DNA of 64,000 nucleotides, taken from positions 62,001-126,000 of the forward strand of contig NZ_CANMRQ010000007.1 in NCBI RefSeq assembly GCF_947500325.1, given 5' to 3'. A program made the position numbers and the translations under genes. Every line of letters starts with the position of its first letter. Positions within the stretch are counted from its first letter, which is position 1. The notes under the pieces were generated by a model. It searched no databases. It was not told the DNA's origin and saw only the letters and a list, made by a program, of their open reading frames with translations. Positions 5,236 through 61,381 of the stretch are shown one piece after another. Source of the stretch: an uncultured Lacinutrix sp. (GTDB taxonomy: Bacteria > Bacteroidota > Bacteroidia > Flavobacteriales > Flavobacteriaceae).

Positions 5236-6711
5236 ATGAAAAATATAAAAATAATAATGTTACTGTTGCTTACAACTTTTAGTGTGGCAGCACAAAACAA
5301 ATTAGAGAAAACCTCTCAAAGTATAAAGGTCAATAGTGATGTAACTATAGATTTAAATACTAGTCATACTAACATTGAAGTAGATACTTGGAGTAAGGAT
5401 TATGTAGAAGTTGAGGCTTATATAGAAGGAAAAAAATTAACACAAGAAGAACTTCAAGACGCTTTAGATGACTGGGATTTAGACGTTAAAGGAACTCGAG
5501 GTAAAGTGAAAATTACATCTAAAGGTTCGCGTGGTGCTTGGTCTAATGATATGAGCCTTAGTATTCTAGATGAAGAATCTGTTGAAGCTTTAGTGAATTT
5601 ACCTACAGATATTAATATGAATTTAGAACCATTATTAGAGAGTTTAACTAGTTTAGAGTCATTAAAAGATTTGCCTGAAGCCTTAGGTGTATTGCGTATT
5701 CCAAAATCTCCAAATGGCAATTATAATATAGACTTTGATTATGATCGCTATCAAAAAGAAGGCGAAAAATATTTAGATTCTTGGAGTAAAAAATACCGTA
5801 AAGAATATGGCGAAGAATATGAAGCAGAAATGCGAGAATGGGCAAAAAGCATCAAGCAATCAGATTTAGATAATTTTGAAAAGCGCATGGAGAACTGGGG
5901 AGAGCAGTTTGGTAAAGATATAGAGAAAGCTTTTGAAGAAGGTTTTGGAAAAGATTTTGAAGAGCGTATGGAAAAGTGGGGAGAAGAGTTTGGAAAGAAT
6001 TTTGAGAAAAATGTGGCGCCGGCTATAGAGAAATGGGGAGAGGAATTTGGAGAAGCATTTGGAGAAAGAATGGAAGAAGCGTTTGGTGATTCTAAATCTA
6101 AAAATAGAAAATCTAAGAATTTTAAGAATTATGATTTAATTAAAACCATAAAAATTAAAATGCCTAAAAAAGCAAAGCTTGAGCTAAATGTTAAGCACGG
6201 TGAGCTAAAAATGGCTTCTGTAATTAGTAACCCTAATGTGACTGTTTCTCATGGCACATTATTAGCAAATACCATTGATGGAAGTGACACTTCCATCAAT
6301 GTTTCTTATTCTAATGCTAAAATTTTAAATTGGAAAGAAGGCGGTTTAAAATTAAATTATGCAGATCAAACAACTATTAAGTCTGCAAAAGATTTAATGC
6401 TAAATGCCATTTCATCAAATATAGATATAGTAACTTTAGGAGGTAATAGTATTATTGATGGTAGTTTTGGTGATTTATATGTTCAAAACATATCAGAGAA
6501 TTTTAATAATTTAAATATAGTTTTAGAAAATAGTGATGCACTTTTAAAACTACCTAATGCCATAGATTATAATCTATACTTTAAAGGTAGTCACTCTAAA
6601 TTTAATAGTGAAAGAGTAAACAACAAGACGATTAAAAATTACCCTAAGAATAATAATAGAAATAGAACTATTATAATTAATGCCAAGTATAGTAATGTGG
6701 TAGCAGAATAA
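5236..6711 (+). CDS. Exported DUF4097-like protein with an acidic repeat insert
   Basis: A 491-residue exported protein; the signal peptide ends near residue 19 (SVAAQ). The N- and C-terminal parts look like the beta-helical, DUF4097-like putative adhesin type common in Bacteroidota: short strands, N/S-rich turns, and segments such as LELNVKHGELKMAS. Between them, about residues 218-285, lies a charged stretch in which a unit like KWGEEFGKNFEK recurs several times and which should form a long amphipathic helix or coiled coil. The gene follows the sigma/anti-sigma pair by 83 bases and is probably part of the same regulon; related genes in other flavobacteria often sit beside sigma or PspC-type regulators. 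Molecular function unknown. Confidence 0.65.
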   Translation: MKNIKIIMLLLLTTFSVAAQNKLEKTSQSIKVNSDVTIDLNTSHTNIEVDTWSKDYVEVEAYIEGKKLTQEELQDALDDWDLDVKGTRGKVKITSKGSRGAWSNDMSLSILDEESVEALVNLPTDINMNLEPLLESLTSLESLKDLPEALGVLRIPKSPNGNYNIDFDYDRYQKEGEKYLDSWSKKYRKEYGEEYEAEMREWAKSIKQSDLDNFEKRMENWGEQFGKDIEKAFEEGFGKDFEERMEKWGEEFGKNFEKNVAPAIEKWGEEFGEAFGERMEEAFGDSKSKNRKSKNFKNYDLIKTIKIKMPKKAKLELNVKHGELKMASVISNPNVTVSHGTLLANTIDGSDTSINVSYSNAKILNWKEGGLKLNYADQTTIKSAKDLMLNAISSNIDIVTLGGNSIIDGSFGDLYVQNISENFNNLNIVLENSDALLKLPNAIDYNLYFKGSHSKFNSERVNNKTIKNYPKNNNRNRTIIINAKYSNVVAE

Positions 6712-6758
6712 GTGAAGATTTAATTGTAATTTAGTGAGTACAATTAATCAATCAAAAA

Positions 6759-8255
6759 ATGAAATCACTTAAACAACTATTTATAGTATGCTTTCTCTTA
6801 GCATGCTTTTTTTCTTGTAAAACAGAACATAAACAAGATATAGAAACTAATCGCTATGCAGAGTTTCTAAATAAACTTCAAAAACAAGGTATTACAACAG
6901 GGAATGTTCTAGTCTATAAAAATGGAAAGGTCGTTTATAAAAATGCTTCAGGTTTAAGAAGTATTAACCCTAAAGATTCCTTAACTCTTGATTCTCAATT
7001 TCGTTTAGCCTCAGTAAGTAAACAGTTTACAGGTATGGCTATTATGAAATTAAAAGAAGCAGGAAAATTAGATTACGATCAAAAAGTAAATAGTATTCTT
7101 CCAAACTTTCCTTATGCAGATATCTCTATAAGACATTTATTATATCATACTTCAGGGTTAACAGATTATGAAAGATTGCTGGCTTACAATTGGAAACCAG
7201 CAGATTCTACTAAAAAATACATTTTGGGGAATGATGAAATTATTAAAGAAATATATAGAGTCAATCCAGAATTAGATTTTAAAACAGGAGAAAAATGGGA
7301 GTATAGTAATACTGGCTATCTGTTTTTAGCATCTATAGTTGAAAAGGTCTCTGGACAGCACTTTAGAACATTTTTAAAAGAGCAAATTTTCGAGCCTTTA
7401 AAGATGAACAACACTGTTTTATATAAATATCAAGAAGCTGAAGATTTAAATATGCCAAACCGTGTTTTTGGATACGAAACAACACTAAATCAATTAGATT
7501 TAAAGCTTAATGACTATAACTTGGTAAATGACGTAAGAGGTGATGGTGGTATTTATTCTACATTAGAGGATTTATATAAATGGAATATGGCACTGGTTAA
7601 TTCTACAATTATTTCAAAAGAGTATTTAGATGAAGCATTCAAACCCGGAAAACTTAACAATGGAGAAGAAACACGTTATGGGTTTGGTTGGTTTATTGAG
7701 TCTAAAAACGAACCTAAAGTCGTATTTCATTCTGGCGGCTGGGTTGGTTTTGGAACCTACTTGTATAATGAACTTGATGATCAAAGCGGGATGATTTTGT
7801 TAACTAATAATTCAAACAACAATCTTCGTGATATTGTTTTTGGTTTAACAAATATTTCTAAAAATAAACCTTATGAAATGCCTAAATTAAAGGCAGAACG
7901 TGTTTTAGCAAAAAAAATACTGAATGAGGATATAGATAAAGGTATTGCTTATTATCATGAAATAAAAACAGATACAACAACATACGAAGTGACTGAAAAT
8001 AATATTAATCAATTAGGGTATTTATTATTACAAAATGGTAATGTAAATGAGTCTATACAAATCTTCAAATTAAATATTGATGAGTACCCAGAATCTGCAA
8101 ATGTATACGATAGTTATGGAGATGCTTTGTTAGAAAAAGGAGATTCTATAAATGCTTTAAGTAATTTTAAGAAGTGTTATGAGATGGATAATACACTAGA
8201 ATATGCATTAGATAAGGCTACAAAATTAGAAGCAATGATTAATAAAAATATATAG
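6759..8255 (+). CDS. Serine hydrolase, beta-lactamase/PBP4* family lipoprotein with TPR tail
   Basis: Class C beta-lactamase-like serine hydrolase. The lipoprotein leader ends at C20 (FFSC). The active-site motifs are all present: SxxK at S85-V-S-K88, YSN at 182-184, and HSGG at 324-327 in the place of the KTG triad. The last 100 residues form at least two tetratricopeptide-like repeats (ending YDSYGDALLEKGD...ALSNFKKCYEMD), an addition often seen in Bacteroidota members of the family. The substrate cannot be deduced: relatives include D-amino peptidases, esterases and penicillin-binding enzymes. It is anchored in the envelope and lies 47 bases after the DUF4097-like gene, 11 bases before the M23 gene. 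Confidence 0.85.
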   Translation: MKSLKQLFIVCFLLACFFSCKTEHKQDIETNRYAEFLNKLQKQGITTGNVLVYKNGKVVYKNASGLRSINPKDSLTLDSQFRLASVSKQFTGMAIMKLKEAGKLDYDQKVNSILPNFPYADISIRHLLYHTSGLTDYERLLAYNWKPADSTKKYILGNDEIIKEIYRVNPELDFKTGEKWEYSNTGYLFLASIVEKVSGQHFRTFLKEQIFEPLKMNNTVLYKYQEAEDLNMPNRVFGYETTLNQLDLKLNDYNLVNDVRGDGGIYSTLEDLYKWNMALVNSTIISKEYLDEAFKPGKLNNGEETRYGFGWFIESKNEPKVVFHSGGWVGFGTYLYNELDDQSGMILLTNNSNNNLRDIVFGLTNISKNKPYEMPKLKAERVLAKKILNEDIDKGIAYYHEIKTDTTTYEVTENNINQLGYLLLQNGNVNESIQIFKLNIDEYPESANVYDSYGDALLEKGDSINALSNFKKCYEMDNTLEYALDKATKLEAMINKNI

Positions 8256-8266
8256 TTGTTATTTTA

Positions 8267-8950
8267 ATGAATAGTTTTAAAGAATTTCTACAATTTCATA
8301 AAGCGCATCCAGTAATTGATGCTTCTATTTCTAGAAGTGATTATATAGCGATCGATTTATCTCAAGCGAATAATGATTTAAAGACCTTTGATATTTCTTC
8401 ATCTAAAGCATGGGAGAAATACATTGTTAATTATTTAAAAAAGCATCAAAAAAAAGTTGCTTTTGGAGGTTATTTAGAAAAGCGAGGCATTTATAATAGA
8501 AGCGATTATTTTAATAATCCTAATCCAGAAACCGAACGCAATATTCATTTAGGTTTAGACTTATGGATTAAAGCTGGAACTAATGTTTTAGCAGCTTATA
8601 ATGGCGAAATACATAGTTTTAAAGATAATACCAACTTTGGGGATTATGGACCTACTATTATTTTGCAGCATAGTATTGGAAATGAACTATTTTATACACT
8701 ATATGGCCATTTGTCTCGTGAATCTTTAATAGGTTTAAACGTAGGAGATAAGATTAAAAAGGGGCAAAGTATAGCGCAATTAGGAACAGCCCAAGTTAAT
8801 GGTGATTATGCACCGCATTTGCATTTTCAAATTATAAAAGATTTACAAGGTAATAATGGAGACTATCCAGGAGTATCTTCTTTACTTGATTTAGAGTTTT
8901 ATAGCGCAAATACTGTAAATCCAGAATTGGTTTTGGAAATAGAAATATAA
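8267..8950 (+). CDS. M23 family metallopeptidase without a signal peptide
   Basis: A 227-residue protein with a LytM/M23 peptidase domain at about residues 85-210. The zinc ligands are visible as H94-x-x-x-D98 (HLGLD) and the second histidine of HLH at 184-186, with a further histidine in YGHLS at 147-150. M23 enzymes usually cut peptidoglycan cross-bridges, but this one starts with a polar, non-hydrophobic N-terminus and has no export signal or membrane helix, so a periplasmic role is uncertain. No upstream in-frame extension would add a signal peptide: the previous gene stops 11 bases before. The residues before the domain (1-80) match no domain I know. Confidence 0.8.
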   Translation: MNSFKEFLQFHKAHPVIDASISRSDYIAIDLSQANNDLKTFDISSSKAWEKYIVNYLKKHQKKVAFGGYLEKRGIYNRSDYFNNPNPETERNIHLGLDLWIKAGTNVLAAYNGEIHSFKDNTNFGDYGPTIILQHSIGNELFYTLYGHLSRESLIGLNVGDKIKKGQSIAQLGTAQVNGDYAPHLHFQIIKDLQGNNGDYPGVSSLLDLEFYSANTVNPELVLEIEI

Positions 8951-9018
8951 TCATAACATTAAAAGTACAATTCCAGAGAAAAAAAGTTTAATATTGCAGC
9001 CAATTTTACACTTGACCT

Positions 9019-20360: not shown

Positions 20361-21158
20361 ATGAATAAATTTATAGTAGCTATTACTATAGTATTTAGTG
20401 TATTATCTACATCTTGTATTACTAATAAAGATGTAGTATATCTTCAAGATAAAGGCACTGTTACTGATAATGCTTTATTATTGAAAGAGCTAGCAAAGCC
20501 TTACAGAGTTCAGATTAACGATATTTTAAGTATAGATATAAAATCTACCGATTCTGAATTGGCAAAGCTAGTAGAGATATTTCAACCTACAGAAAAAGGA
20601 AGTGCAGGAGGTCAAGAAGGATTGTATTATAGTGGATTTACTGTCGATTTACATGGTAATATAAAATTTCCAATATTAGGAGATATTAATGTATTAGGTT
20701 TTACCACTGATGAGATTGTTGAAAAAGTAAGGCAGTCATTACTAAAGAATTATTTAAAAGATATTTCTCAAATTTTTGTAACTGTAAAATTAGCAGGATT
20801 GAGATATACAGTCTCTGGAGAAGTTAATGGAACAGGTGTTTTAACACTGTATCAAGATAGAGTAAATATTATAGAGGCTTTGGCAAATGCAGGAGATATA
20901 AAAGATACTGGTGATAGAACAGATGTTATGGTGATACGTCAATATCCGCAAGGACAAAAAATACACCATATAGATTTAACAGATATGGCAGCTATGCAAT
21001 CACCATATTATTATATTCAACCTAATGATATGATTTTAGTTAAACCTTTAAAACGTAAAGCTTTAGGTGCTGGGCAAACAGCAACACAAACATTTACTAC
21101 TATTGCATCTATTTTCTCTGTAATAGTCTCAACCTACTTTTTAGCAAGAAACCTATAA
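20361..21158 (+). CDS. Polysaccharide export outer-membrane lipoprotein, Wza type
   Basis: Outer-membrane channel component for export of the surface polysaccharide. The 265-residue protein starts with a lipoprotein leader ending at C19 (STSC). The Poly_export domain (about 50-150) begins YRVQINDILSIDIKS, and one SLBB domain follows (about 150-235, YTVSGEVNGTGVLTLY). A C-terminal hydrophobic segment (about 243-262) is the membrane anchor usual in Bacteroidota Wza proteins. It is the first gene of the 41-kb run, 12 bases ahead of the Wzc gene, and follows a good promoter. Confidence 0.92.
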   Translation: MNKFIVAITIVFSVLSTSCITNKDVVYLQDKGTVTDNALLLKELAKPYRVQINDILSIDIKSTDSELAKLVEIFQPTEKGSAGGQEGLYYSGFTVDLHGNIKFPILGDINVLGFTTDEIVEKVRQSLLKNYLKDISQIFVTVKLAGLRYTVSGEVNGTGVLTLYQDRVNIIEALANAGDIKDTGDRTDVMVIRQYPQGQKIHHIDLTDMAAMQSPYYYIQPNDMILVKPLKRKALGAGQTATQTFTTIASIFSVIVSTYFLARNL

Positions 21159-23650: not shown

Positions 23651-24640
23651 GTGAGTAGTATTTATCATAAAGAAGATTTATCAAAATTACAATTTTTAGT
23701 TACCGGAGGCGCTGGGTTTATTGGGTCTAATATTGTAGACTATTTATTAAAGCATAACGCAAAAAAAGTACGTGTATTAGATGATTTATCTAATGGATAT
23801 ATGGCAAACATAGACGCTTTTATGAACTTGCCTAATTTTGAGTTTATAAAAGGAGATATTCGAGATATAGAAACTTGTAGGTTAGCTATGGAAGGCATAG
23901 ATTATGTTAGTCATCAAGCTGCATTAGGATCGGTACCAAGATCAATTAATGATCCTGCAACTTCTAATGCCGTAAATGTATCAGGGTTTTTAAATATGCT
24001 TATTGCTTTAAAAGAAAGTAATACTGTTAAACGTATGGTATATGCAGCATCTAGTTCTACTTATGGAGATAGTAAAAGTTTGCCAAAAATTGAAGATGAA
24101 ATAGGGAAGCCTTTATCTCCTTATGCGGTTACTAAGTATGTAAATGAGTTATATGCAGATGTTTTTGGTAAAACCTATGGCACAGATGTTATTGGTTTGC
24201 GTTATTTTAATGTTTTTGGGCCAAAGCAAAGTCCTAATGGAGCTTATGCAGCAGTAATTCCTTTATTTATGCAAGCTATTATAGATAACAAGCCAGCAAA
24301 AATAAATGGAGATGGTGAGCAAACAAGAGATTTTACCTATGTAGATAATGCTGTTCAAGCTAATATTCGTGGTTTCTTTGCATCTTCAGAAGCACAAAAT
24401 GAAGTGTTTAATGTAGCTTGTAACGATCGTATTAGTGTTAATCAATTATGGAATATGCTTAATGCTTCTGCAGGGAAAAATATAAAAGCGAATCATGGGC
24501 CAAGTCGTTTGGGAGATGTTAGAGATTCTCTAGCAGATATAACTAAAGCTAAGAACTTATTAGGTTACGAACCGCAATACAATACAAAAGAAGGATTAGT
24601 AAAAACGTGGAATTATTTTAAAACACACACTGTTGAGTAA
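23651..24640 (+). CDS. UDP-N-acetylglucosamine 4-epimerase-like SDR enzyme (WbpP type)
   Basis: Extended short-chain dehydrogenase of 329 residues. The NAD-binding motif GGAGFIG is at 19-25, the catalytic serine region AASSSTYGD at 133-140, and the YxxxK pair at Y158/K162. The segment QAALGSVPRSINDP is characteristic of the WbpP/TviC-like C4-epimerases acting on UDP-GlcNAc or its uronic acid, so the product is likely UDP-GalNAc(A). It would supply a precursor for the polysaccharide. The start is GTG at 23651; the stop overlaps the Wzm start by eight bases. Confidence 0.85.
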   Translation: MSSIYHKEDLSKLQFLVTGGAGFIGSNIVDYLLKHNAKKVRVLDDLSNGYMANIDAFMNLPNFEFIKGDIRDIETCRLAMEGIDYVSHQAALGSVPRSINDPATSNAVNVSGFLNMLIALKESNTVKRMVYAASSSTYGDSKSLPKIEDEIGKPLSPYAVTKYVNELYADVFGKTYGTDVIGLRYFNVFGPKQSPNGAYAAVIPLFMQAIIDNKPAKINGDGEQTRDFTYVDNAVQANIRGFFASSEAQNEVFNVACNDRISVNQLWNMLNASAGKNIKANHGPSRLGDVRDSLADITKAKNLLGYEPQYNTKEGLVKTWNYFKTHTVE

Positions 24641-25511
24641 AGCTAAAACATCACAAGACTGGTTATATACTATTTCTCCTAAAAAGAAGGCAATAGACCT
24701 AAATTTTAAAGAAATATGGCGTTATCGTGACCTACTGTTTTTATTTGTAAAGCGAGATGTTATTACGCAATACAAACAGACCATATTAGGCCCTTTATGG
24801 TATTTTATACAACCTTTATTTACTAGTGTTATATTTACGCTTATTTTTAATAATCTAGCAGCAATACCAACAGGAGAAGGTATTCCTGCATTTTTATTTA
24901 ATCTAGCTGGTATAACATCTTGGAACTATTTTAGTGCCTGTTTAACTGGTACCAGTAATACCTTTACTGCAAATCAAGGAATTTTTGGAAAAGTTTATTT
25001 TCCAAGAGTAATTACACCATTATCAGTTGTGTTTTCAAATCTTTTAAAGTTTGGAATTCAATTATTAGTATTTATATGCTTTTACATTTACTTTGTTTTT
25101 TTTACAGACAAAGCGTCTAATGCTGTGCCTCAAATTGCTATTTTATACCTCCCAATTCTCATTGCTTTTATGGGTTTATTTGGTTTAGGTTTTGGGATGA
25201 CAATTTCTTCTATGACTACAAAGTATAGAGATCTTAGTTTTCTAGTAGGTTTTGGTGTGCAGTTATTAATGTATGGTTCTGCAGTAATGTATCCTTTGTC
25301 TTATTTTAAAGAAAAAGTGCCAGAATACGCATGGTTAGTAGAATATAACCCAATGACCACAATTATAGAGCTATTTAGATATATGACTTTAGGAATTGGT
25401 GAATTTTCTCTTTCTAAATTTTTATATGCTGGTAGTGTTAGTATTGTGTTTTTTTTAGTAGGGCTGATTATATTTAATAAAACAGAAAAAACTTTTATAG
25501 ATACCGTTTAG
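24633..25511 (+). CDS. Polysaccharide ABC transporter permease, Wzm type
   Basis: ABC-2 family permease that moves undecaprenyl-linked polysaccharide across the inner membrane. The 292-residue protein has six membrane helices and the family segment VKRDVITQYKQTILGPLW near residue 36, just before the first helix. The last part NPMTTIIELFRYMTLG is also characteristic. The start is TTG at 24633, which overlaps the end of the epimerase gene by eight bases and is the only start upstream of the conserved region. It pairs with the ATPase gene that follows after one base. Confidence 0.92.
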   Translation: MSKAKTSQDWLYTISPKKKAIDLNFKEIWRYRDLLFLFVKRDVITQYKQTILGPLWYFIQPLFTSVIFTLIFNNLAAIPTGEGIPAFLFNLAGITSWNYFSACLTGTSNTFTANQGIFGKVYFPRVITPLSVVFSNLLKFGIQLLVFICFYIYFVFFTDKASNAVPQIAILYLPILIAFMGLFGLGFGMTISSMTTKYRDLSFLVGFGVQLLMYGSAVMYPLSYFKEKVPEYAWLVEYNPMTTIIELFRYMTLGIGEFSLSKFLYAGSVSIVFFLVGLIIFNKTEKTFIDTV

Positions 25512-25512
25512 T

Positions 25513-26793
25513 ATGAAAGAGCAAGACATTATCTTAAAAGCAGAAAACATTTCTAAACAATACCGTTTGGGATTGGTAGGAACAGGAACCATTAGTCACG
25601 ATTTAAACAGATGGTGGTCGCAAATACGAGGAAAAGGAGATCCTTATTTAAAAGTAGGAGAAACTAACGATCGTAGTTCAAAAGGAAACTCTCAATATGT
25701 TTGGGCATTAAAAGATATTAATTTTGAAGTTAAACGTGGCGAAGTATTAGGCATTATAGGAAAAAATGGAGCAGGTAAATCTACACTATTAAAAATTTTA
25801 TCTAAAGTTACAGGTCCAACTACTGGAGAAATTAAAACCAAAGGCCGTATCGCTTCTTTATTAGAAGTGGGTACTGGATTTCATGGAGAAATGACTGGAC
25901 GAGAAAATGTGTATTTAAATGGTGCCATTTTAGGAATGACCAAAAAAGAAATCAAAACTAAAATTAGTGAGATAATTGAGTTCTCTGGTTGTGAACGTTA
26001 TATAGATACACCAGTAAAACGATACAGTTCTGGTATGAAAGTGCGTTTAGCATTTGCAGTTGCTGCGTTTTTAGAACCAGAAATTTTAGTCGTTGATGAA
26101 GTATTGGCTGTAGGTGATGCAGAGTTTCAAAAGAAGGCGATTGGAAAAATGCAGGATATTAGTAGTGGAGAAGGTAGAACAGTTTTGTTTGTGAGTCATA
26201 ATATGGCTTCAGTAGAAAAATTATGTACCAGAGGAATATTATTAGTAAATGGTTCTATTGCTTTTGAAGGAAATGTAGAAGACACAATCTCATACTATAG
26301 AAAACAAGTATCTACAGATATAAATAAATTTGGGTTTTCTAATAGAGATAGAGCAGGTAAAGAAGTTAGTTTTACTGATTTTAATATTTTAAATCAAAGA
26401 AATGAAATTACGGAAAGAATCTTAATTGATGAATCCACTAAATTTCAAATAAAAGTAGAGAGTAAAGTAGATATAAAAATAACAACTAGAATTACTGTTT
26501 TTGATCAAAATGAAACACGAATTTTTGCTTTTGATTCTAAAAACACATCTACTTATTTTAATATAGAAAAAGGAGAGAATACATTAGAATGTCTATTACC
26601 AAATGGTTTAGAAATTAAACCTGGAGAATATTATATAAATATATCGATTAGATCTTTAGATAAATTACTAGATCATATTGTAAAAGTTTCTGAAATAATA
26701 ATTGAACCAACAGATTATTTTAATTCTGGAAGATTGGTTACATCAGATATTCCTTTGGTCTTAAAGAAAAATCAATGGATTTTTTCAAATTAA
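25513..26793 (+). CDS. Polysaccharide ABC transporter ATPase, Wzt type with C-terminal domain
   Basis: ATPase of the Wzm/Wzt exporter. Walker A GKNGAGKS is at 83-90, the signature YSSGMKVRLA at 171-180, and Walker B ILVVDE at 191-196. The N-terminal domain is longer than in simple ATPases (an insert at about 23-65). After residue 270 a beta-rich domain of about 150 residues corresponds to the Wzt C-terminal carbohydrate-binding domain. In E. coli O8/O9a that domain recognises the capped non-reducing end of the finished chain, so its presence implies that a capping enzyme should exist; the next gene is a candidate. Confidence 0.92.
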   Translation: MKEQDIILKAENISKQYRLGLVGTGTISHDLNRWWSQIRGKGDPYLKVGETNDRSSKGNSQYVWALKDINFEVKRGEVLGIIGKNGAGKSTLLKILSKVTGPTTGEIKTKGRIASLLEVGTGFHGEMTGRENVYLNGAILGMTKKEIKTKISEIIEFSGCERYIDTPVKRYSSGMKVRLAFAVAAFLEPEILVVDEVLAVGDAEFQKKAIGKMQDISSGEGRTVLFVSHNMASVEKLCTRGILLVNGSIAFEGNVEDTISYYRKQVSTDINKFGFSNRDRAGKEVSFTDFNILNQRNEITERILIDESTKFQIKVESKVDIKITTRITVFDQNETRIFAFDSKNTSTYFNIEKGENTLECLLPNGLEIKPGEYYINISIRSLDKLLDHIVKVSEIIIEPTDYFNSGRLVTSDIPLVLKKNQWIFSN

Positions 26794-26794
26794 T

Positions 26795-28690
26795 ATGGAA
26801 ACACCTCTAATTCATACACTAATAATCTGGTCTAAAGGGAATTCACATGTAGATCATATTCTTAAAGATATTGGAGACTCTTTTCAAATATTAAATATTT
26901 TTAACTTCTCATGGAAGGATGATCTGTTTTATGAAAATTTAAAACGATTTTATTCTCATTCGCAAAAAGATAAAAATGAAGCCGAATACAATTATATAAT
27001 TAAAAATAAAATAGAGCATTGTGGCTCAGGTGATTTTACATTAATAATATTTGAAGATTTAAATCCGAAATTTGAAAATAGAAAAACATCTAATGGAGTT
27101 AATAATGTAAATGTAAACGTATTTGATAAAAAAAGAGATTATAGATTGTTAACTGGTGGAGGACATAAAATCCATGCATCTGATAATTATTTTGAGTCTA
27201 ATAAGGATCTAGTTTTATTATTAGATACTACATTAGATAATTATAGAAATAAATACGAATCTTCACCTAATATAATAAATAGAAGTAATAACATTTTGGG
27301 AGTTCCTTTTTGGAGTTCAATTAATGAATTGTTTTTTGTTCTTAATAACAGTCTTGAGTATGTAGTATTAAGGAATTTTGAATGTTTGCCCAATGATTAT
27401 CATATAGATGGTCATGGAGATATAGACCTTTTAGTAGAAGATTATAATTATGCAAAGTATATTACTGGTGCATTAGATGTGTTTCCTGAAAAAGAACATA
27501 GAGTTTATCATTATATAGATATTAAAGGAGAAAAAGTTCCATTTGATTTTAGATATTTAGGAGATAATTATTATGATAAAAAATGGCAATTAGATATTCT
27601 TAATAATAAAGTGTTTTCTGAGAAAGGTTTTTATAAACCAAATAAAATAAATCATTTTTATAGTCTTTTATACCATGCATATATACACAAAAAAGAAGTG
27701 TCTATAGATTATAGAGATATATTATCAGAATATGCAGAAAAAATATTTATTCCCTTTAACTCAAAAACGAAAGTTACTGATGCAATAGGTTTATTGTCAG
27801 ATTTTATGAAAGAAAAGTTATATAACTTCTCTTTACCTAAAGATTTGAGTGTTACTTTTAATAAAAGTAATGTTGAGGTAAATAATATTAATCTTAAAGA
27901 TAATGAGAAATTAATCTCTTCATCTTCTTCCAGAACTATAGATCGTAGTTTTTTATCGGAAGTATATGAGAGTAATAATAAAATATTAAAGATAGCAGCT
28001 AAACCCATAGCTGAGAATGAGTATTTGTTCTTAAATAAACTAAGGGATTATAATTTTTTTCCTAAAACGTATTCATTTAATAATTTTGGTGAGTATGATA
28101 AAGTTGAAATAGAAAAAATTGAAGGACTTGGATTTGATAAAATAACAGAAATACCTATATCTTATTGGAATAATAAAAATGTTTTAAATCTAATTAAAGA
28201 TTCTACTTTAATTTTAGTTTCTCTATTAAAGTCTAATACAAAGCATCGAGATATAAAGCCTAATAATATTATTTTAAACAAGAGAGATGGGACATATAAA
28301 ATGTTTTTAATTGATTTTGGTTGGGCAGAAAATATTAATGACAATAAAGAATCAATCACACCTTTAAGGTTGGGATCTAATTTTAAATATATAGGAAACG
28401 GTTTTAGTGATGCTTATTCAATGGGGAAAACTTTGAAATTTGCATTTGGTAAATTAAAAATTGCTAAATATTTCATAGATGAGTTTTTAAGTATAAAACC
28501 AGAAGATTACCAAGACAAAGTTTTAATAGAAAAAAGATTTAATTTAATATTAGAAAAGTTGGATGTTGAACTATCTAAAGCATCAGGTTTTAGTTTAGAT
28601 CTTTTAAAATGGAAACTAAAAGCTTCAATAGGAGAGAAACAAAAAAAACAATTAATCAAGCTTTTAAAAAAGGCTAAACTGTTAAGGTGA
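26795..28690 (+). CDS. Three-part protein: unassigned N-terminal module, nucleotidyltransferase-like motif, protein-kinase-like domain
   Basis: I do not know a named family for this 631-residue soluble protein. Residues 1-160 form an alpha/beta module with the motif TGGGHKIHASDN (120-131). Residues 175-300 contain HGDIDLLV (207-214) and, later, VPFDFRYLG (248-256), which resembles the GD-x-D metal site of polymerase-beta-type nucleotidyltransferases. Residues 385-600 are kinase-like: an ILKIAAKP segment (397-404) that could hold the ATP lysine, the catalytic loop HRDIKPNN (484-491) and DFG (507-509), so all key residues are present. It directly follows Wzt by one base. By analogy with WbdD, a kinase-containing chain terminator, it may phosphorylate or cap the polymer; alternatively it may act on a precursor sugar. 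Confidence 0.6.
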   Translation: METPLIHTLIIWSKGNSHVDHILKDIGDSFQILNIFNFSWKDDLFYENLKRFYSHSQKDKNEAEYNYIIKNKIEHCGSGDFTLIIFEDLNPKFENRKTSNGVNNVNVNVFDKKRDYRLLTGGGHKIHASDNYFESNKDLVLLLDTTLDNYRNKYESSPNIINRSNNILGVPFWSSINELFFVLNNSLEYVVLRNFECLPNDYHIDGHGDIDLLVEDYNYAKYITGALDVFPEKEHRVYHYIDIKGEKVPFDFRYLGDNYYDKKWQLDILNNKVFSEKGFYKPNKINHFYSLLYHAYIHKKEVSIDYRDILSEYAEKIFIPFNSKTKVTDAIGLLSDFMKEKLYNFSLPKDLSVTFNKSNVEVNNINLKDNEKLISSSSSRTIDRSFLSEVYESNNKILKIAAKPIAENEYLFLNKLRDYNFFPKTYSFNNFGEYDKVEIEKIEGLGFDKITEIPISYWNNKNVLNLIKDSTLILVSLLKSNTKHRDIKPNNIILNKRDGTYKMFLIDFGWAENINDNKESITPLRLGSNFKYIGNGFSDAYSMGKTLKFAFGKLKIAKYFIDEFLSIKPEDYQDKVLIEKRFNLILEKLDVELSKASGFSLDLLKWKLKASIGEKQKKQLIKLLKKAKLLR

Positions 28691-28693
28691 AAG

Positions 28694-29608
28694 ATGAGTT
28701 ATACAGCAGTAATAATAGTGACTTACAATGGAGAACAATGGATTAGAAAATGTCTAAATTCCGTTATCGATTCTACAATCAAGTCTCATATTATAGTTGT
28801 GGATAATAAATCTACAGATGGTACTTTGTCAATTATAAAAAATAATTTTAAAGATGTTGTTTTAATTGAAAATGAAGAAAATTTTGGTTTTGGTAAAGCA
28901 AATAATATTGGGATTGAAAAAGGATTGGTTTTAGGAGCAGAGTATTTTCTTTTATTAAATCAAGATGCTTATTTACAAAAAGAGACTCTTGAAAATTTAG
29001 TTTCTAAAATGAAGAAAAATGAATCTCAAGGTATTATTAGCCCAGTTCATTTAGATGGAAGTGGAGAGCAATTAGATATTTATTTTCAATCTTATATAGC
29101 GCCGTCAAACTGTAAAAATTTATATTCTGATGTCTTCTTAAAGAAACAATTAAAAACGCTTTATACGGTAGATTTTATAAATGCTGCTATTTGGTTACTT
29201 TCTAAGCAAACAATAAAAAAAGTTGGCGGTTTTAATCCTTATTTTTTTCATTATGCTGAGGATAACGATTATATAAATAGATGTAAATATAAAGGTTTGC
29301 AAGTCTCAGTAGATCCTAATTCGTATGCTTATCATGATAGGCTGCAAAAAAAACGAATGGTGACAAGTAATGTTTTAAATAATGTTCGCGATGTGAAGCT
29401 TATGAATCCAAATAATAATATAGATGCATCTAAAATGCTAAATCTAACTTTTAAGAAGCTTGTAAAGTCACTTTTAACGTTCAACAAATCAAGTTTTAAA
29501 AATGATTTTAAATATTTAAAGAAAACGTATAAAAACAAGAAGCAAATAAGAGAGATTATAAAACAAGTTAAAAATGATGATTACGCATTTTTAAATTATA
29601 ACGAATGA
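28694..29608 (+). CDS. Glycosyltransferase family 2, rhamnosyltransferase-like
   Basis: GT-A fold transferase of 304 residues. The N-terminus has VVDNKSTDGT (35-44), NFGFGKANNIGI (63-74) and a LLNQDAY metal-binding motif (87-93) in place of the more usual DxD; FHYAEDNDYINRCKYKG is the acceptor-side segment. This combination is typical of the WbbL-like rhamnosyl/mannosyltransferase subgroup that uses dTDP- or GDP-6-deoxysugars, which would agree with the GDP-6-deoxyhexose genes downstream; the exact sugar cannot be read from sequence. No membrane helices. The last four bases overlap the next gene (ATGA). Confidence 0.85.
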   Translation: MSYTAVIIVTYNGEQWIRKCLNSVIDSTIKSHIIVVDNKSTDGTLSIIKNNFKDVVLIENEENFGFGKANNIGIEKGLVLGAEYFLLLNQDAYLQKETLENLVSKMKKNESQGIISPVHLDGSGEQLDIYFQSYIAPSNCKNLYSDVFLKKQLKTLYTVDFINAAIWLLSKQTIKKVGGFNPYFFHYAEDNDYINRCKYKGLQVSVDPNSYAYHDRLQKKRMVTSNVLNNVRDVKLMNPNNNIDASKMLNLTFKKLVKSLLTFNKSSFKNDFKYLKKTYKNKKQIREIIKQVKNDDYAFLNYNE

Positions 29609-30434: not shown

Positions 30435-31259
30435 GTGGTTTCATTAGTAATCTTATCGAATACAAACAGCAGCATTATTTATAATATGAATGTAGAGTGT
30501 CTAAATTCATTTGTAAAAAGTGCCAAGCTTGCTAATAAACCATTTGAAATTATTCTTGTTGAAAGTAGTAATGAAGCAGATTATACATACAATGAAGACG
30601 TTAAAGTTTTAAAGCCTAATACCGTTTTTAATTTTCACAAGTTTGCCAATATAGGTTTAAGAGCTGCAAAAGGAGACTATTTTATTTTTAGTAATAATGA
30701 TGTAGTTTTTGATAAAAACTGTTTGGTAGAATTTTTTAAAGTTATTAATAATAACAAAAATATTAAGTCTTTTTCTCCATACGATGCACGTTCAAATAAA
30801 TTACCAAAAGCGAAAATAAATACAGAATCACATATCTTAGGTTTCGAAATACAGAAACATATAACAGGTTGGTGTATAGTGATGCATAAAGACGTCTATA
30901 AAATAATAAAAGAATTAGATGAACGATTTGATTTTTATTATGCCGATAACGATTATGCGATGCAACTACAAAAATATAATATTAAACACGCACTAGTTAC
31001 AAAAGCTTATGTGGAACATTTAGAAGCACAGAGCACATTAAAAGACGTTGTTGAAACTAATTTTAAACTTCCTGAAAATACGCCTAAATATATTATTGAA
31101 GAGCAATGGACTTGGGTTTTAAGTAATGAAAAAATGATTAATGGTTTAATTGCTTTTCATAAAAAATGGGGAAGTAGAAAGTTAATTAAAATGAAGTTGT
31201 TTTTAGCTAAAAACTGCTCTAATTTAGGACTAGGGTATTTAAATAGATATATAGTATAG
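30435..31259 (+). CDS. Glycosyltransferase family 2
   Basis: A 274-residue GT-A enzyme starting at GTG 30435. The nucleotide-binding region is EIILVESSNEAD (39-50), the metal site is SNNDVVF (86-92), and the acceptor region has HITGWCIVMHKDV followed by DFYYADNDYAMQL, the ED-like pair replaced by ADND. The order and spacing match GT2 inverting enzymes. Substrate unknown. No membrane helix. Confidence 0.8.
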   Translation: MVSLVILSNTNSSIIYNMNVECLNSFVKSAKLANKPFEIILVESSNEADYTYNEDVKVLKPNTVFNFHKFANIGLRAAKGDYFIFSNNDVVFDKNCLVEFFKVINNNKNIKSFSPYDARSNKLPKAKINTESHILGFEIQKHITGWCIVMHKDVYKIIKELDERFDFYYADNDYAMQLQKYNIKHALVTKAYVEHLEAQSTLKDVVETNFKLPENTPKYIIEEQWTWVLSNEKMINGLIAFHKKWGSRKLIKMKLFLAKNCSNLGLGYLNRYIV

Positions 31260-33392: not shown

Positions 33393-34082
33393 ATGAAAGT
33401 GTTAATTAAGAAAATTATTAAGAGAATTAAATTTAATCTAAAGTCTAAAAACGAAAGATTAAAGATTGAGCAGGATAATATACAGTACCAACGTTGTATA
33501 CCATGGTTTGAAGCAGATGGAGATAATACATTGCGTTTAAATTATCCGTTAGATAAAGACTCAGTAGTTTTTGATTTAGGTGGCTATAAAGGTGAATTTG
33601 CTACAGATATATATAATACATATGAATCTACTATTTATGTTTTTGAGCCTATCCTTTCTTTTTATAATATTATAAAAAACAAGTTTGTAAATAACAGTAA
33701 AGTAAAACCATTTCAATACGGATTGGCAGGAGAAGATCATCAAATGCAAATAAGTTTGACAGATAATTCGTCTTCAGTATATATAAAATCGAAAGACACA
33801 GAGACAATTAAACTTAAATCTATTGTGAATTTTATTAAAGCTAATGCAATTCAGCATATAGATTTAATAAAAATAAATATAGAAGGTGGAGAATACGACG
33901 TTTTAGAGTCTTTAATTGAAAATAGTATGCTAACGTACTTTACAGATATCCAAATTCAGTTTCATGATTTTATAATTCCCAATGCAAAAGAAAGAATGCA
34001 AAGTATTCAAAAAGAACTAGCAAAAACTCACAAACTAACATATCAATATGAGTTTGTTTGGGAAAATTGGACTTTAAAATAA
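33393..34082 (+). CDS. FkbM family methyltransferase
   Basis: SAM-dependent O-methyltransferase of 229 residues. Motif I is VFDLGGYKGEFATDIY (about 58-73), the ribose-binding acidic residue is in YVFEPILSF, and DLIKINIEGGEYDVLESL (about 157-174) is the FkbM hallmark with its IxIEG core. FkbM enzymes often methylate sugars; here it may methylate one residue of the polymer or its terminus. The 31-base gap before it is one of the larger ones in this part of the run. Substrate unknown. Confidence 0.88.
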   Translation: MKVLIKKIIKRIKFNLKSKNERLKIEQDNIQYQRCIPWFEADGDNTLRLNYPLDKDSVVFDLGGYKGEFATDIYNTYESTIYVFEPILSFYNIIKNKFVNNSKVKPFQYGLAGEDHQMQISLTDNSSSVYIKSKDTETIKLKSIVNFIKANAIQHIDLIKINIEGGEYDVLESLIENSMLTYFTDIQIQFHDFIIPNAKERMQSIQKELAKTHKLTYQYEFVWENWTLK

Positions 34083-44483: not shown

Positions 44484-45638
44484 ATGAAAAGCATAGGCTT
44501 TATTCCATTACGTAAAGGATCTAAAGGAATTCCAAATAAAAATAAACGTAAAATGGTTGGAAGGCCATTATTTACGTGGGTTTTAGGAGAAGCTATATTT
44601 TCTAACTTAGATGAAATTATAGTATATACAGATGATCAAGATATTATTAGTTTTATTGATAAGGAATACAAATGGACTACTAAGGTGAAAGCGGTTCTTA
44701 GAAGTGCTGAAAGTGCAAGCGATACAGCTTCAACGGAGTTTGCTATGCTTGAGTATTGTGAGTCTATTAATTATAATTTTGAAACGTTTTGCTTGTTACA
44801 AGCAACGTCTCCATTTACAAAAAGAGAGAATATTAATGACTGTTTGTCTGCTATACAAGGACAATACGATTCTGCATTAACGGTAGTTAATACACATCGG
44901 TTTTTATGGAATGAAAATGGAACTCCTATAAATTATAATCCTCATGAGAGACCAAGACGTCAAGATTTTGATGGTTTATTAATTGAAAATGGTGCAGTTT
45001 ATACAACAACTAAAGTTGCATTACAGAAATATAAAAATAGAATAGGAAAGAAAACAGCAGTTGTGAAGATGCCAGAAGACTCGCTATTAGAAATTGATAC
45101 AGAAATGGATTGGATTGCTGTAGAACAATTACTAATAGAACGTCAAAAAAGAGCAAAAACATCTGCGAAAATCACACATGTAGTTTTAGATGTAGATGGA
45201 GTGTTTACAGATGGTACAATTACTTATACTAAAGATGGAGAGCATACAAAACAGTTTGATATGCGTGATGGTATGGGATTAGAGATATTGCGTCAATTTG
45301 ATGTGAATGTAATGGTAATGACATCAGAAAACTCAGAGTTGGTTGCTAAGCGCATGCAAAAACTAAAAATAGAAAATGTATATTTAGGAGTAAAGGATAA
45401 ATACAGTTTACTACAGAATATATTAAAAGACAATAAACTTTCAATAAACAATTTTGCTTACCTAGGTGATGATGTTAATGATCTAACAAATATTTGCAGT
45501 GTAGGTTGGTCTATAGCCCCAAATAATGCTACAGATGTTGTAAAACAACATGCAGATATTGTATTGTCTAAACCTTCAGGAGCTGGAGCGATAAGAGAAG
45601 CCTGCCAGTTTATAATGAATTATAATAAAAGATTTTAA
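44484..45638 (+). CDS. CMP-nonulosonate synthetase fused to a KdsC-like 9-phosphatase
   Basis: Two enzymes in one 384-residue chain. Residues 1-222 are a NeuA-type cytidylyltransferase: IPLRKGSKGIPNKN (7-20) is the CTP-binding motif and LLQATSPFTKREN (104-116) is conserved. Residues 228-384 are a HAD phosphatase of the tetrameric C0 kind: DVDGVFTDG (236-244) with D236/D238, FDMRDGMGL (258-266) and GDDVND (328-333). The fusion suggests the pathway passes through a 9-phosphate (NeuNAc-9-P or KDN-9-P) that is dephosphorylated and activated by the same protein. Vertebrate CMAS has the same domain order. A gap of 86 bases, the largest in the run, precedes it. Confidence 0.85.
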   Translation: MKSIGFIPLRKGSKGIPNKNKRKMVGRPLFTWVLGEAIFSNLDEIIVYTDDQDIISFIDKEYKWTTKVKAVLRSAESASDTASTEFAMLEYCESINYNFETFCLLQATSPFTKRENINDCLSAIQGQYDSALTVVNTHRFLWNENGTPINYNPHERPRRQDFDGLLIENGAVYTTTKVALQKYKNRIGKKTAVVKMPEDSLLEIDTEMDWIAVEQLLIERQKRAKTSAKITHVVLDVDGVFTDGTITYTKDGEHTKQFDMRDGMGLEILRQFDVNVMVMTSENSELVAKRMQKLKIENVYLGVKDKYSLLQNILKDNKLSINNFAYLGDDVNDLTNICSVGWSIAPNNATDVVKQHADIVLSKPSGAGAIREACQFIMNYNKRF

Positions 45639-45644
45639 AAGCAT

Positions 45645-46520
45645 ATGAATACCTATAAAAAACCATACGTTATTGCCGAAATAGGATGCAATCATAAAGG
45701 AGAAATGGAACTCGCTAAAGAGTTAATAAAAGTGGCAAAAATCTTTTGTAATGTAGATGCAGTAAAGTTTCAAAAAAGAAATAATAAAGAATTATTAACC
45801 GAAGAACAGTATAATAATCCGCACCCAAACCCAATTAATTCTTATGGAGATACTTATGGAGCACATAGAGAGTTTTTAGAATTTGATGTGGAGCAACATG
45901 CCGAATTAAAAGCATATTGTGAAGAAATAGGTATTACCTATTCAACATCTGTATGGGATGTAACATCTGCTAAAGAAATAGCTTCTTTAAACCCCGAGTT
46001 TATAAAGATTCCGTCTGCATGTAATAATAATGTTGCAATGCTAGAATGGTTATGTGAGAATTATAAAGGAGAGTTGCATATTTCTACAGGTATGACAACT
46101 AAAGATGAGATAGACGAGTTGGTAAAACTCTTCAAAAAACATAATAGAAATAAAGATTTAGTATTATATAATTGTACTTCTGGATATCCAGTACCGTTTA
46201 ATGATGTTTGCTTATTAGATATAAATTTATTGTTAGATAAATATAAAGACGAAGTTAAACATATAGGTTTCTCTGGTCATCATTTAGGTATTGCTGTAGA
46301 TGTAGCTGCTTATACTTTAGGCGCTAATATTGTTGAGCGTCATTATACTATTGATAGAACCTGGAAAGGAACAGATCACGCAGCATCATTAGAACCAATG
46401 GGATTGCGTAAGTTATCTCGCGATTTAAGAGCTGTACACCAAGCATTAGCATTTAAGAGTCAAGATATTTTGCCAATAGAGCAAGTGCAACGTGATAAAT
46501 TAAAAAACCAAAAAGGATAA
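45645..46520 (+). CDS. NeuB-family nonulosonate (-phosphate) synthase, short form
   Basis: Condenses phosphoenolpyruvate with a six-carbon aldose (ManNAc, ManNAc-6-P or Man-6-P). The TIM-barrel features of NeuB are present: AEIGCNHKGE (11-20), VDAVKFQKRN (37-46), IKIPSAC, HISTGMTT, YNCTSGYP and GFSGHHLG, and ERHYTIDRTWKGTDHAASLEP near the end. At 291 residues it stops after the barrel and lacks the C-terminal SAF (antifreeze-like) domain of about 60 residues found in most NeuB proteins. No NeuC-type epimerase is encoded nearby, so an aldose phosphate such as Man-6-P is possible, which would give KDN-9-P. The N-acetyl versus KDN choice is not readable. Confidence 0.85.
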   Translation: MNTYKKPYVIAEIGCNHKGEMELAKELIKVAKIFCNVDAVKFQKRNNKELLTEEQYNNPHPNPINSYGDTYGAHREFLEFDVEQHAELKAYCEEIGITYSTSVWDVTSAKEIASLNPEFIKIPSACNNNVAMLEWLCENYKGELHISTGMTTKDEIDELVKLFKKHNRNKDLVLYNCTSGYPVPFNDVCLLDINLLLDKYKDEVKHIGFSGHHLGIAVDVAAYTLGANIVERHYTIDRTWKGTDHAASLEPMGLRKLSRDLRAVHQALAFKSQDILPIEQVQRDKLKNQKG

Positions 46521-59990: not shown

Positions 59991-61381
59991 TGAATAAGAG
60001 TAGTATTCACTTTGAAATTTCAGAACGTAAAGTACTATTACGTATTTTCGACTTACTTTTTGTAGGTTTTGCTTTATATGGCTTAAGTCATGTCCCCGGA
60101 TTCGATTATTTTACTATAAATGAGTATAATTGGAGATGGCTTATTGTGCTCGCCATTTATATAATGGGTTTTGGTACTATTTTCGAATTATACGATTTAC
60201 AGAAATCTAGTAAAATGGAATCCGTTACAGGAACAGTGATTGTTACTAGTTCTGTTACTGTATTGTTTTACTTGTTAACTCCTTGGTTTACGCCTTCTTT
60301 ACCAGAAAATCGTCTGCAAATTGTTTACTTTTTTCTTGCTATTACTTTGGCTTTGTTACTATGGAGATTGGCTTATATTAATTTTGTTTCTTCTGCTAGA
60401 TTTTATAAAAAAGTTTTGTTAGTTGGAGAGACTTCTAATATAGAAAATATAGTAGATGCTTTTAAAAAAGCAGATCCAAACTATAAAATTATTGGATTTA
60501 TTAATTGTGAAACTAAAAAACAAGATGCTATAAAGTTTAAAGGTGTTCCTGAATATAGACCTGAAGATATTCATAGCATAATTGCTGAGGAAAATATTTC
60601 TGAAGTAGTTATAGCTACTTATAATTCTGAAACAATTACATCAAGTATTTATACCGATTTAATTCATTTATTAGAAAAAGGATTTCCTATTAGAGAATAT
60701 ACGCAAGTATATGAAGATATGACCTATCGGGTGCCTGTTCAATTTGTAGGAAAAGATTTTTATAAATATTTTCCATTTAGCCGGAATAATAAAAACAAGT
60801 TGTTTTTAGCTTATAGGCGTATTTTTGATATTTTAATCTCTCTTACGGGCTTATTGTTTGGAATCTTATTTTTACCATTTATATTAATTGGAAACCTAAT
60901 TGGTAATCGCGGACCATTATTTTATACGCAAGAACGTGTTGGTATGAATGGAAAACTTTTTGGTATTTATAAATTTAGAACCATGGTTACAGATGCTGAA
61001 GCAAATGGTGCCGTTTGGGCTAAAAAGAATGATTCTCGTATCACAGTTTTTGGAAAGTTTTTAAGAACAAGCAGATTAGACGAAATACCTCAATTTATAA
61101 ATATTTTAAAAGGAGATATGAGTACTATTGGTCCAAGACCAGAAAGACCTATGTTTGTTAGTGAGCTCTCACAAGTAATCCCTTTTTATGAAACTAGGCA
61201 TATAGTAAAACCAGGGCTTACAGGTTGGGCACAAGTAAAAGCGCGTTACGGAGCCAGTATTGATGATAGTTTAGTGAAATTACAATATGACTTATATTAT
61301 ATTAAACACCGTAGTTTTATACTAGATTTTAATATTATTATAAAAACGTTAAGCACAGTTATTTTCTTTCGAGGACAATAA
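59990..61381 (+). CDS. Undecaprenyl-phosphate glycosyl-1-phosphate transferase, WcaJ/PHPT type
   Basis: Starts the repeat unit by putting the first sugar phosphate on undecaprenyl phosphate. The 463-residue protein has four N-terminal membrane helices (about 12-120), a Rossmann-like CoA-binding-fold domain (about 135-230, KKVLLVGETSNIENIV), another hydrophobic segment (about 282-303), and the catalytic bacterial-sugar-transferase domain: FGIYKFRTMVTDAE, SRLDEIPQFINILKGDMS, and IGPRPERP, then KPGLTGWAQVKARYG. The sugar is likely glucose, galactose or a HexNAc derivative. It is the last gene of the run and stops five bases before the opposite-strand stop of the next gene. Confidence 0.93.
   Translation: MNKSSIHFEISERKVLLRIFDLLFVGFALYGLSHVPGFDYFTINEYNWRWLIVLAIYIMGFGTIFELYDLQKSSKMESVTGTVIVTSSVTVLFYLLTPWFTPSLPENRLQIVYFFLAITLALLLWRLAYINFVSSARFYKKVLLVGETSNIENIVDAFKKADPNYKIIGFINCETKKQDAIKFKGVPEYRPEDIHSIIAEENISEVVIATYNSETITSSIYTDLIHLLEKGFPIREYTQVYEDMTYRVPVQFVGKDFYKYFPFSRNNKNKLFLAYRRIFDILISLTGLLFGILFLPFILIGNLIGNRGPLFYTQERVGMNGKLFGIYKFRTMVTDAEANGAVWAKKNDSRITVFGKFLRTSRLDEIPQFINILKGDMSTIGPRPERPMFVSELSQVIPFYETRHIVKPGLTGWAQVKARYGASIDDSLVKLQYDLYYIKHRSFILDFNIIIKTLSTVIFFRGQ

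Follow-up and report, generated by a model that had tools for sequence, protein, structure and literature searches.

A three-module protein encoded beside a cap-reading Wzt probably adds a phosphate-based mark to a surface sugar chain

Methyl, methyl-phosphate or Kdo caps have been described that end a polysaccharide chain and license its export via a domain of Wzt (PMC9445017; PMC3482155), and the protein WbdD is described as phosphorylating the chain end (PMC3482155). The stretch of DNA analysed here, a window of 64,000 nucleotides from an uncultured Lacinutrix species, raises the question of what is done by an unusual protein encoded directly after a Wzt of this kind. The window holds a single long polysaccharide locus, with an export protein at 20361 at one end and a sugar-phosphate transferase at 61381 at the other (most gene labels were assigned by eye, some by Pfam). 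On its forward strand, to which the window features written below with two dots also belong, the ABC-2 type export permease Wzm (24633..25511; PF01061, 9.2e-18) is followed by the ABC ATPase Wzt (25513..26793; PF00005, 4.5e-23), which carries a C-terminal carbohydrate-binding domain at residues 283-396 (Wzt_C, PF14524, 6.1e-8). The Wzt stop lies at 26793, and after a gap of one base an open reading frame with an ATG start (26795..28690) encodes a protein of 631 amino acids. The original prediction saw in this protein an unassigned module, a nucleotidyltransferase-like motif and a kinase-like domain, and proposed that it caps the chain; the one-base gap and the C-terminal domain of the neighbouring Wzt, on which it also relied, are both confirmed.

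The next gene in the same run encodes a GT2 glycosyltransferase (28694..29608; PF00535, 4.2e-24); glycosyltransferases come after the three-module gene. Further along is an FkbM methyltransferase (33393..34082; PF05050, 1.6e-9), again as predicted, which in the original prediction was a candidate to act together with the protein. A locus from another genus of the same bacterial family (L008) shows Wzm, Wzt, a gap of one base, a homologue with 54% identity, counterparts of the window genes at 30435 and 31266, and FkbM (ORF 6505-7191, likeness judged by eye). No counterparts of the window genes at 28694, 29605 and 32309 were seen in that locus. Elsewhere in the window, a reading by eye places at 44484-46520 a fusion of a CMP-sugar synthetase with a HAD phosphatase and a NeuB-like synthase. 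This suggests that the window polymer contains a nonulosonic acid; a CMP-linked donor would be available in the cell.

An AlphaFold2 model of the whole protein, made from an alignment of 69 rows, has a mean pLDDT of 93.2 (L021, with masked N, was left out of the structure alignments). Residues 377-600 (27923..28594) adopt a protein-kinase fold. When the full model was searched with Foldseek, all 50 of the matches listed were kinase-fold entries, the best being TTBK1 (1.2e-9), and among these matches the fold is nearest to that of the casein kinase/TTBK group, which belongs to the eukaryotic protein kinases. Pfam names nothing but kinase on the protein, with PF17667 at 1.3e-6 (above its cut-off) and PF00069 at 1.7e-5 (below its cut-off); a third match, at 0.068, was set aside as chance level. 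A profile built from 21 kinases matches protein kinases, the best at 3.6e-19. The motifs HRDIKPNN (residues 484-491, 28244..28267) and DFG (residues 507-509, 28313..28321) are intact in the window protein. In a set of 34 kinases that includes the window protein and leaves out L036, L042 and L048, the HRD aspartate and the loop asparagine are kept in all 34, the DFG aspartate in 33, and the strand-3 lysine in 32 of the 33 with letters at that position. The predicted kinase domain, placed at residues 385-600 and read from its intact motifs, is therefore borne out by both fold and conservation.

The module at the other end of the protein contains TGGGHKIHASDN at residues 120-131, and had been left without an assignment. 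Residues 1-365 were modelled separately (pLDDT 95.4) and compared with the PDB using Foldseek. Among the best 50 of 357 matches (E up to 10), 48 were named NDK, NME or NM23, the remaining two being chains of axonemal assemblies. These best 50 have a best E of 6.3e-4 with only two at E <= 0.001, probabilities of 0.98-1.00 and target TM up to 0.65. Seven residues, H127 (codon 27173..27175), R117, N106, Y53, W12, W40 and E134, are identical in all 70 aligned rows, window included, and K113 is identical in 69. A comparison by hhalign gave a weak alignment (P 0.019, reversed control 0.56) that puts H127 on the histidine of the NDK motif HGSD; the NDK profile used was narrow because all 25 of its sequences come from close relatives. 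Pfam found no NDK in the window protein, and PF00334 appeared in one of 50 members scanned (0.021). The position of the NDK lysine after strand 1 is W12 in 70 of 70 rows, and K14 is present in 24 of 70. We take W12 to stand where nucleoside diphosphate kinases have their phosphate-binding lysine, and the tyrosine and arginine positions of the module presumably correspond to NDK residues. The module thus resembles nucleoside diphosphate kinase in fold and in its histidine motif, and differs in a sequence likeness that is barely detectable and in the tryptophan at the lysine position. The conservation of H127, R117, N106, Y53 and E134 indicates that the module noticed in the original prediction is not a chance feature, and an NDK fold at residues 1-152 (26795..27250) is its likely identity, as judged from the model.

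Between the two lies a module (residues 166-362, 27290..27880) with the motif GDIDLLV at residues 208-214 (GDID, 27416..27427). D211 and the third acid D251 (27545..27547) are identical in all 70 rows and D209 in 68 of 70, window included, so that a DhDh motif with its third acid is present and the likeness to a nucleotidyltransferase (NTase) metal site is not fortuitous. Profile comparison with NTP_transf_5 (PF14907), using usable sequence from 8 of 20 NTP_transf_5 loci, gave P=3.6e-5 (prob. 71%) over 117 columns with GDID in register, compared with P=0.42 for the reversed control. In the Pfam scan PF14907 was weak in 3 of 50 members (best E 0.028) and significant in none of the 50; neither it nor any other NTase was found in the window protein. 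In the structure comparison made with residues 1-365, which include this module, the best 50 matches were of NDK type. The middle module resembles in sequence the uncharacterised family NTP_transf_5, and is the least secure of the three module assignments. We know of no NDK or kinase partner in the NTP_transf_5 family. The protein ends in basic helices (residues 601-631, 28595..28687, from the secondary structure of the model), which may possibly contact the membrane.

The closeness of the kinase fold to the casein kinase/TTBK group, among the matches listed, could mean that the kinase has a protein substrate, such as Wzc, Wzt or a glycosyltransferase, with the NDK and NTase-like parts serving as sensors; the protein would then be a regulator and not a glycan enzyme. 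We consider this improbable. WbdD is a glycan kinase whose fold is likewise described as eukaryote-like (PMC3482155), all or nearly all aligned rows keep the residues of the NTase and NDK motifs, unlike those of a mere sensor, and relatives are fused to glycosyltransferases and methyltransferases.

WbdD of E. coli O9a is described as a cytoplasmic protein with a kinase fold that works in a Wzm/Wzt pathway with a carbohydrate-binding domain on its Wzt (PMC3482155). The window protein shares with this type of terminator a kinase with catalytic loop and DFG motif, and a Wzt with a C-terminal domain next door. It differs from WbdD in having NDK-fold and NTase-like modules, which WbdD lacks, and in having neither a methyltransferase nor a visible coiled coil. 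No methyltransferase was matched in the 631-residue protein, as the original prediction had it, and the NDK-like, NTase-like and kinase modules account for the model. Read from the model, the longest helix has 21 residues and no coiled-coil ruler is visible. No WbdD chain was among the matches listed in the kinase-fold and profile searches. Since methyltransferase and coiled coil are two defining features of WbdD and both were looked for without success, we do not file the three-module protein as a WbdD.

The Klebsiella terminators that have been described carry a coiled coil (PMC11231755). Among them ORF6-N of K. pneumoniae O7 is described as combining a methyltransferase, an unusual kinase, a CBM, a coiled coil and a GT2 (PMC11231755). 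It is comparable in that a kinase not belonging to the classical families terminates the chain by phosphorylation (PMC11231755), and in its fusion to a glycosyltransferase, as in the relatives L022, L023 and L073. It differs in its methyl-phosphate chemistry, where the window protein has no methyltransferase, and its description in that source includes no NDK or NTase-like module (PMC11231755). The Lcin_0519 family of the Legionella pan-kinome is a predicted kinase-methyltransferase beside Wzm/Wzt with a proposed role in LPS decoration; its kinase is of another type, without helix alpha-C, and the account of it consulted mentions no NDK or NTase-like module (PMC9758233).

The modules of the protein recur in many phyla. 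A scan of a contig collection with the single protein found none, and a six-row alignment used as query found 79 loci in the collection of 84,980 species (best 80 of 84 relatives; three of the 79 loci repeat genomes of the order set). Among 299 genomes from the bacterial family three (G000, G171 and G078) have the NDK-NTase part; there are 3 further carriers among 296 genomes of the order and, besides G000, 4 distant carriers among 395 genomes of the phylum. Record titles of the relatives include Bacteroidota, Firmicutes, Proteobacteria, Planctomycetes and others. A plasmid collection gave four matches, all kinase-only, and a phage collection none; the kinase-only matches G169, G237, G082 and G145 are not counted as members. 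Duplicate, kinase-only or weak loci (L001-L007, L010-L018, L025, L059, L069 and L090) were dropped, leaving 85, and these became 81 because in L067, L072, L091 and L093 no NTase-like gene remained once overlapping ORFs had been resolved.

The NDK-NTase part has no significant name in Pfam (50 members), NCBIfam (window protein, no match above cut-off) or PHROGs (two proteins), and the family profile, run against PDB sequences, had no matches at E 5. The best E in the 50-member Pfam scan, 0.0005 for a Csx1 HEPN model in one member, was taken as chance. Among the open-licence papers listed in literature searches we found none naming the three-module combination.

A kinase or kinase-like partner is fused to the NDK-NTase part, or lies at most two genes away, in 62 of the 81 loci, 20 of them by motif only. 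The kinase is in the same chain in 27 loci and in a gene within two genes, on either strand, in 15. A protein with methyltransferase, kinase-like and coiled-coil parts takes this place in a further 20, in the same chain in nine and within two genes in 11. No partner was found in 19 loci, although in two of these (the gene next to that of L021, and L024) there is a weak kinase match which escaped the profile. The modules are separate genes in L092 and L086 (L066 and L086 may be frameshift-split), they occur in another order in L024 and in the viral L168 (read by eye), and in L022, L023 and L073 they are parts of very large proteins with glycosyltransferase domains. Since the modules stay together through fusion, splitting and reordering, they very likely work together.

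Ten contigs classed as viral carry relatives. By eye, the same modules are present in three of these from IMG/VR (46-184 kb): L165 (4250-5786) has a kinase gene followed by an NDK-NTase gene, L168 (4809-6380) has kinase then NDK-NTase in one ORF, and L174 (4794-6159) has a kinase gene followed by an NTase-like gene. The flanks of these three, which are the viral contigs that were read, showed no Wzm or Wzt.

NTase and kinase folds are common in toxin and anti-phage systems, and the kinase part of the window protein (residues 404-522) matches PD-T4-6 models in PADLOC, the best at 1e-11. The protein could thus belong to a nucleotidyltransferase-kinase toxin or anti-phage system that stands in a polysaccharide locus by chance. 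This is very unlikely: the PADLOC matches among those listed cover the kinase only, no model matched the NDK-NTase protein of L034, and glycosyltransferase, exporter and flippase neighbours recur in many phyla. That the protein modifies an envelope glycan at all we hold with good confidence.

One of these neighbours is Wzt. It is present in the DNA covered in 25 of the 81 loci, and the family gene is its direct neighbour in 22 of the 25. Random placement within the same loci gave 4.0 adjacent genes on expectation and at most 12 in 10,000 rounds. The 22 loci comprise six of the ten members of a Bacteroidota group, 13 of a clostridial group, two Campylobacterales and L070; because the 13 clostridial loci are one clade, the 22 do not represent as many independent events. 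Wzt adjacency needs at least six changes on a quickly made tree of the family, which has 67 inner branches, 24 of them weak. Wzt_C is found in 23 of 24 Wzt proteins scanned from family loci, 21 of the 24 being direct neighbours (the Wzt of L027, L066 and L079 are not, and that of L052, which is in pieces, was left out). In the bacterial family of the window Wzt_C is found in 70 of 199 genomes, and of these 70 just G000 and G171 encode the three-module protein, which is a rare occupant of the slot after wzt.

As a control we took the best-scoring 30 of 72 Wzt_C places from the same bacterial family (L135-L164; G000 and G171 rank below these). The next gene was taken to be the longest ORF on the strand of wzt that starts close to where wzt ends; in some cases the end of the locus truncates it. 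The 30 places showed no NDK-like, NTase-like or kinase module within about 1.5 kb. The next gene matched Sulfotransfer_1 in six, Sulfotransfer_3 in six, FkbM in six, Methyltransf_24 in four, hexapeptide in three, radical SAM in two and pyruvyl transferase in one (Pfam; the families overlap, and the counts cover 25 of 38 families). A DegT aminotransferase, an epimerase and an O-antigen-ligase-like protein were also found. The slot after wzt is therefore often, though not always, occupied by a glycan-modifying enzyme, and the gene directly 3' of wzt in this bacterial family is possibly a general terminator slot. The genes after a Wzt_C-bearing wzt in this set are very diverse, sulfo-, methyl- and acyltransferases being frequent. 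Direct adjacency far above expectation, the near-constant Wzt_C and the enzymes of the control slot together support a glycan-modifying, possibly chain-capping role.

The partners of some relatives are terminator-like. In Campylobacterales and Clostridia the NDK-NTase part comes directly after wzt, and is fused to, or lies at most two genes before, a methyltransferase with kinase-like and coiled-coil parts (the methyltransferase by Pfam, the other two by eye). This parts list is that of WbdD and Klebsiella O7 ORF6 as described (PMC3482155, PMC11231755). Clostridial examples following the NDK-NTase gene include L046 12119-13846, L047 2520-4184 and L042 11872-12846, with kinase-like motifs D..F.N and DQEW; related parts are also found in Campylobacterales. 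A PDB search with the methyltransferase partner gave, among the matches listed, methyltransferases over the methyltransferase part, except for one potassium-uptake protein. The clostridial protein looks like a further terminator family.

Compared with the window, in four of five comparisons Wzt_C is 22-37% identical and the kinase 25-36%, and the NDK and NTase modules are 44-55% identical. Kinase and reader domain diverge to a like degree, five comparisons being too few to judge if they do so in step. Wzt_C being so divergent between loci with the enzyme, it is not evident that they have a single cap in common.

Most loci that contain Wzt have the homologue beside a Wzt with a C-terminal domain. 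This does not extend to the family as a whole, and homologues common in loci without Wzm/Wzt, which would have told against the original prediction, are in part what is found: 56 of the 81 loci show no Wzt in the DNA covered, several of the contigs being short. A Wzx flippase is the direct neighbour in 11 loci (L009, L024, L037, L043, L050, L062, L075, L078, L096, L097 and L099; cluster 40, to which L009, L024 and L097 owe the label, was named by eye), and the Wzx pathway is not known to need a cap. L021 and L032 lie among GT9 and LPS-kinase-like genes in LPS-core-like loci (labels by eye), with one weak Pfam match to a Kdo kinase in L021 (0.0034). Of the ten members of the clade to which the window belongs, L027 has its Wzt eight genes away, L040 has only Wzm, and L028 and L032 have neither. 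In G078 the Wzt_C gene is far from the NDK-NTase gene in the genome. Both contexts can coexist in one organism, since a single MAG (UBA1903) has two members: in L026 all three modules are in one protein, encoded between Wzm and Wzt, and in L097 the protein has two modules and its neighbour is a Wzx-like gene, labelled by eye. We make no claim on dTDP-rhamnose, because the RmlD label (cluster 6) is impure and includes the window GT2 at 28694. In L009 the NDK-NTase gene adjoins a gene for a 171-residue protein (8501-9016) that matches PF01982, the CTP-dependent riboflavin kinase family, at 4.9e-5, just under the cut-off; this locus also has sulfotransferase and, by eye, sulfate-activation genes.

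These contexts bear on the second main reading, in which a phosphate-linked group is placed at a non-terminal site, as a linker, a decoration of core or repeat unit, or a priming step, in the manner of LicD-type enzymes, and adjacency to Wzt reflects nothing more than assembly at the exporter. The capsule assembled with CpsC is ABC-exported. Neighbouring Wzx genes, LPS-core-like loci and viral-classed contigs all fit such a decoration, and CpsC, of the LicD family and NTase fold, is described as a glycerol-phosphate transferase of capsule assembly (PMC11666461). Against it, in loci that have a Wzt the family strongly prefers the position immediately after this cap reader, it is fused to or paired with terminator-like methyltransferase proteins, and LicD is matched by no member in the scan of 50 (PF04991 is not one of the 19 families that gave matches at E up to 0.1). 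We regard this reading as a real possibility, clearly below an even chance.

The original proposal of chain capping thus survives in part. The kinase fold, the place beside Wzt, the Wzt_C domain and the terminator-like partners argue for it; the 56 loci without Wzt, the Wzx, LPS-core-like and viral contexts and the lack of a visible coiled-coil ruler argue against a dedicated cap. We propose that the three-module protein probably adds a phosphate-based mark to a surface sugar chain. That in the window locus this is a chain-end mark which licenses export we suggest tentatively, at not far short of an even chance.

What computation shows is the folds of the two end modules, the conserved catalytic residues, the three modules occurring together and the position beside a cap-reading Wzt; we infer the glycan substrate, the chain-end site, the donor and the order of steps in the following scheme. 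The protein would be an enzyme of the cytoplasm that modifies glycans and combines three folds for handling phosphate, one NDK-like, one like NTases of the polymerase-beta type and one of protein-kinase fold. The kinase-fold domain would phosphorylate a sugar hydroxyl of the lipid-linked glycan. The NTase-like and NDK-like domains would bind or process a nucleotide or nucleotide-linked donor, and may extend the phosphate made by the kinase to a phosphodiester-type cap. LicD, CpsC and FKRP are described as using an NTase fold to transfer a phosphorylated group to a glycan, with a CDP-linked compound as donor (PMC11666461), which makes such an extension step chemically plausible; the three-module protein adds to these an NDK fold and a kinase. 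The C-terminal domain of the adjacent Wzt would then read the cap before export. In loci with Wzt the phosphate mark would be an end mark, and elsewhere a decoration.

In its boldest form, this describes a new kind of glycan-capping enzyme. The invariant histidine of the NDK fold would act as a phospho-enzyme or nucleotide handler, the NTase fold would carry out nucleotidyl or phospho-alkyl transfer, and the kinase would prepare the sugar phosphate. The product would be a mark of phosphodiester or nucleotide type on lipid-linked glycans. Wzt would read it in some pathways, in others it would serve as a decoration, and some large viruses would carry it. We think this full version rather unlikely.

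The novelty would lie in a glycan-phosphorylating enzyme of export loci that is set apart from WbdD and whose NDK-NTase part has no significant family name. If the proposal is correct, export licensing of surface polysaccharides would gain a chemistry beyond the methyl, methyl-phosphate and Kdo caps described (PMC9445017), and an NDK fold would have been taken up for glycan chemistry in a widespread enzyme family. With relatives in Bacteroidota, Firmicutes, Proteobacteria, Planctomycetes and other groups, one solved example would annotate many loci. It would also become possible to test if the terminator is generally encoded by the gene that directly follows a cap-reading Wzt.
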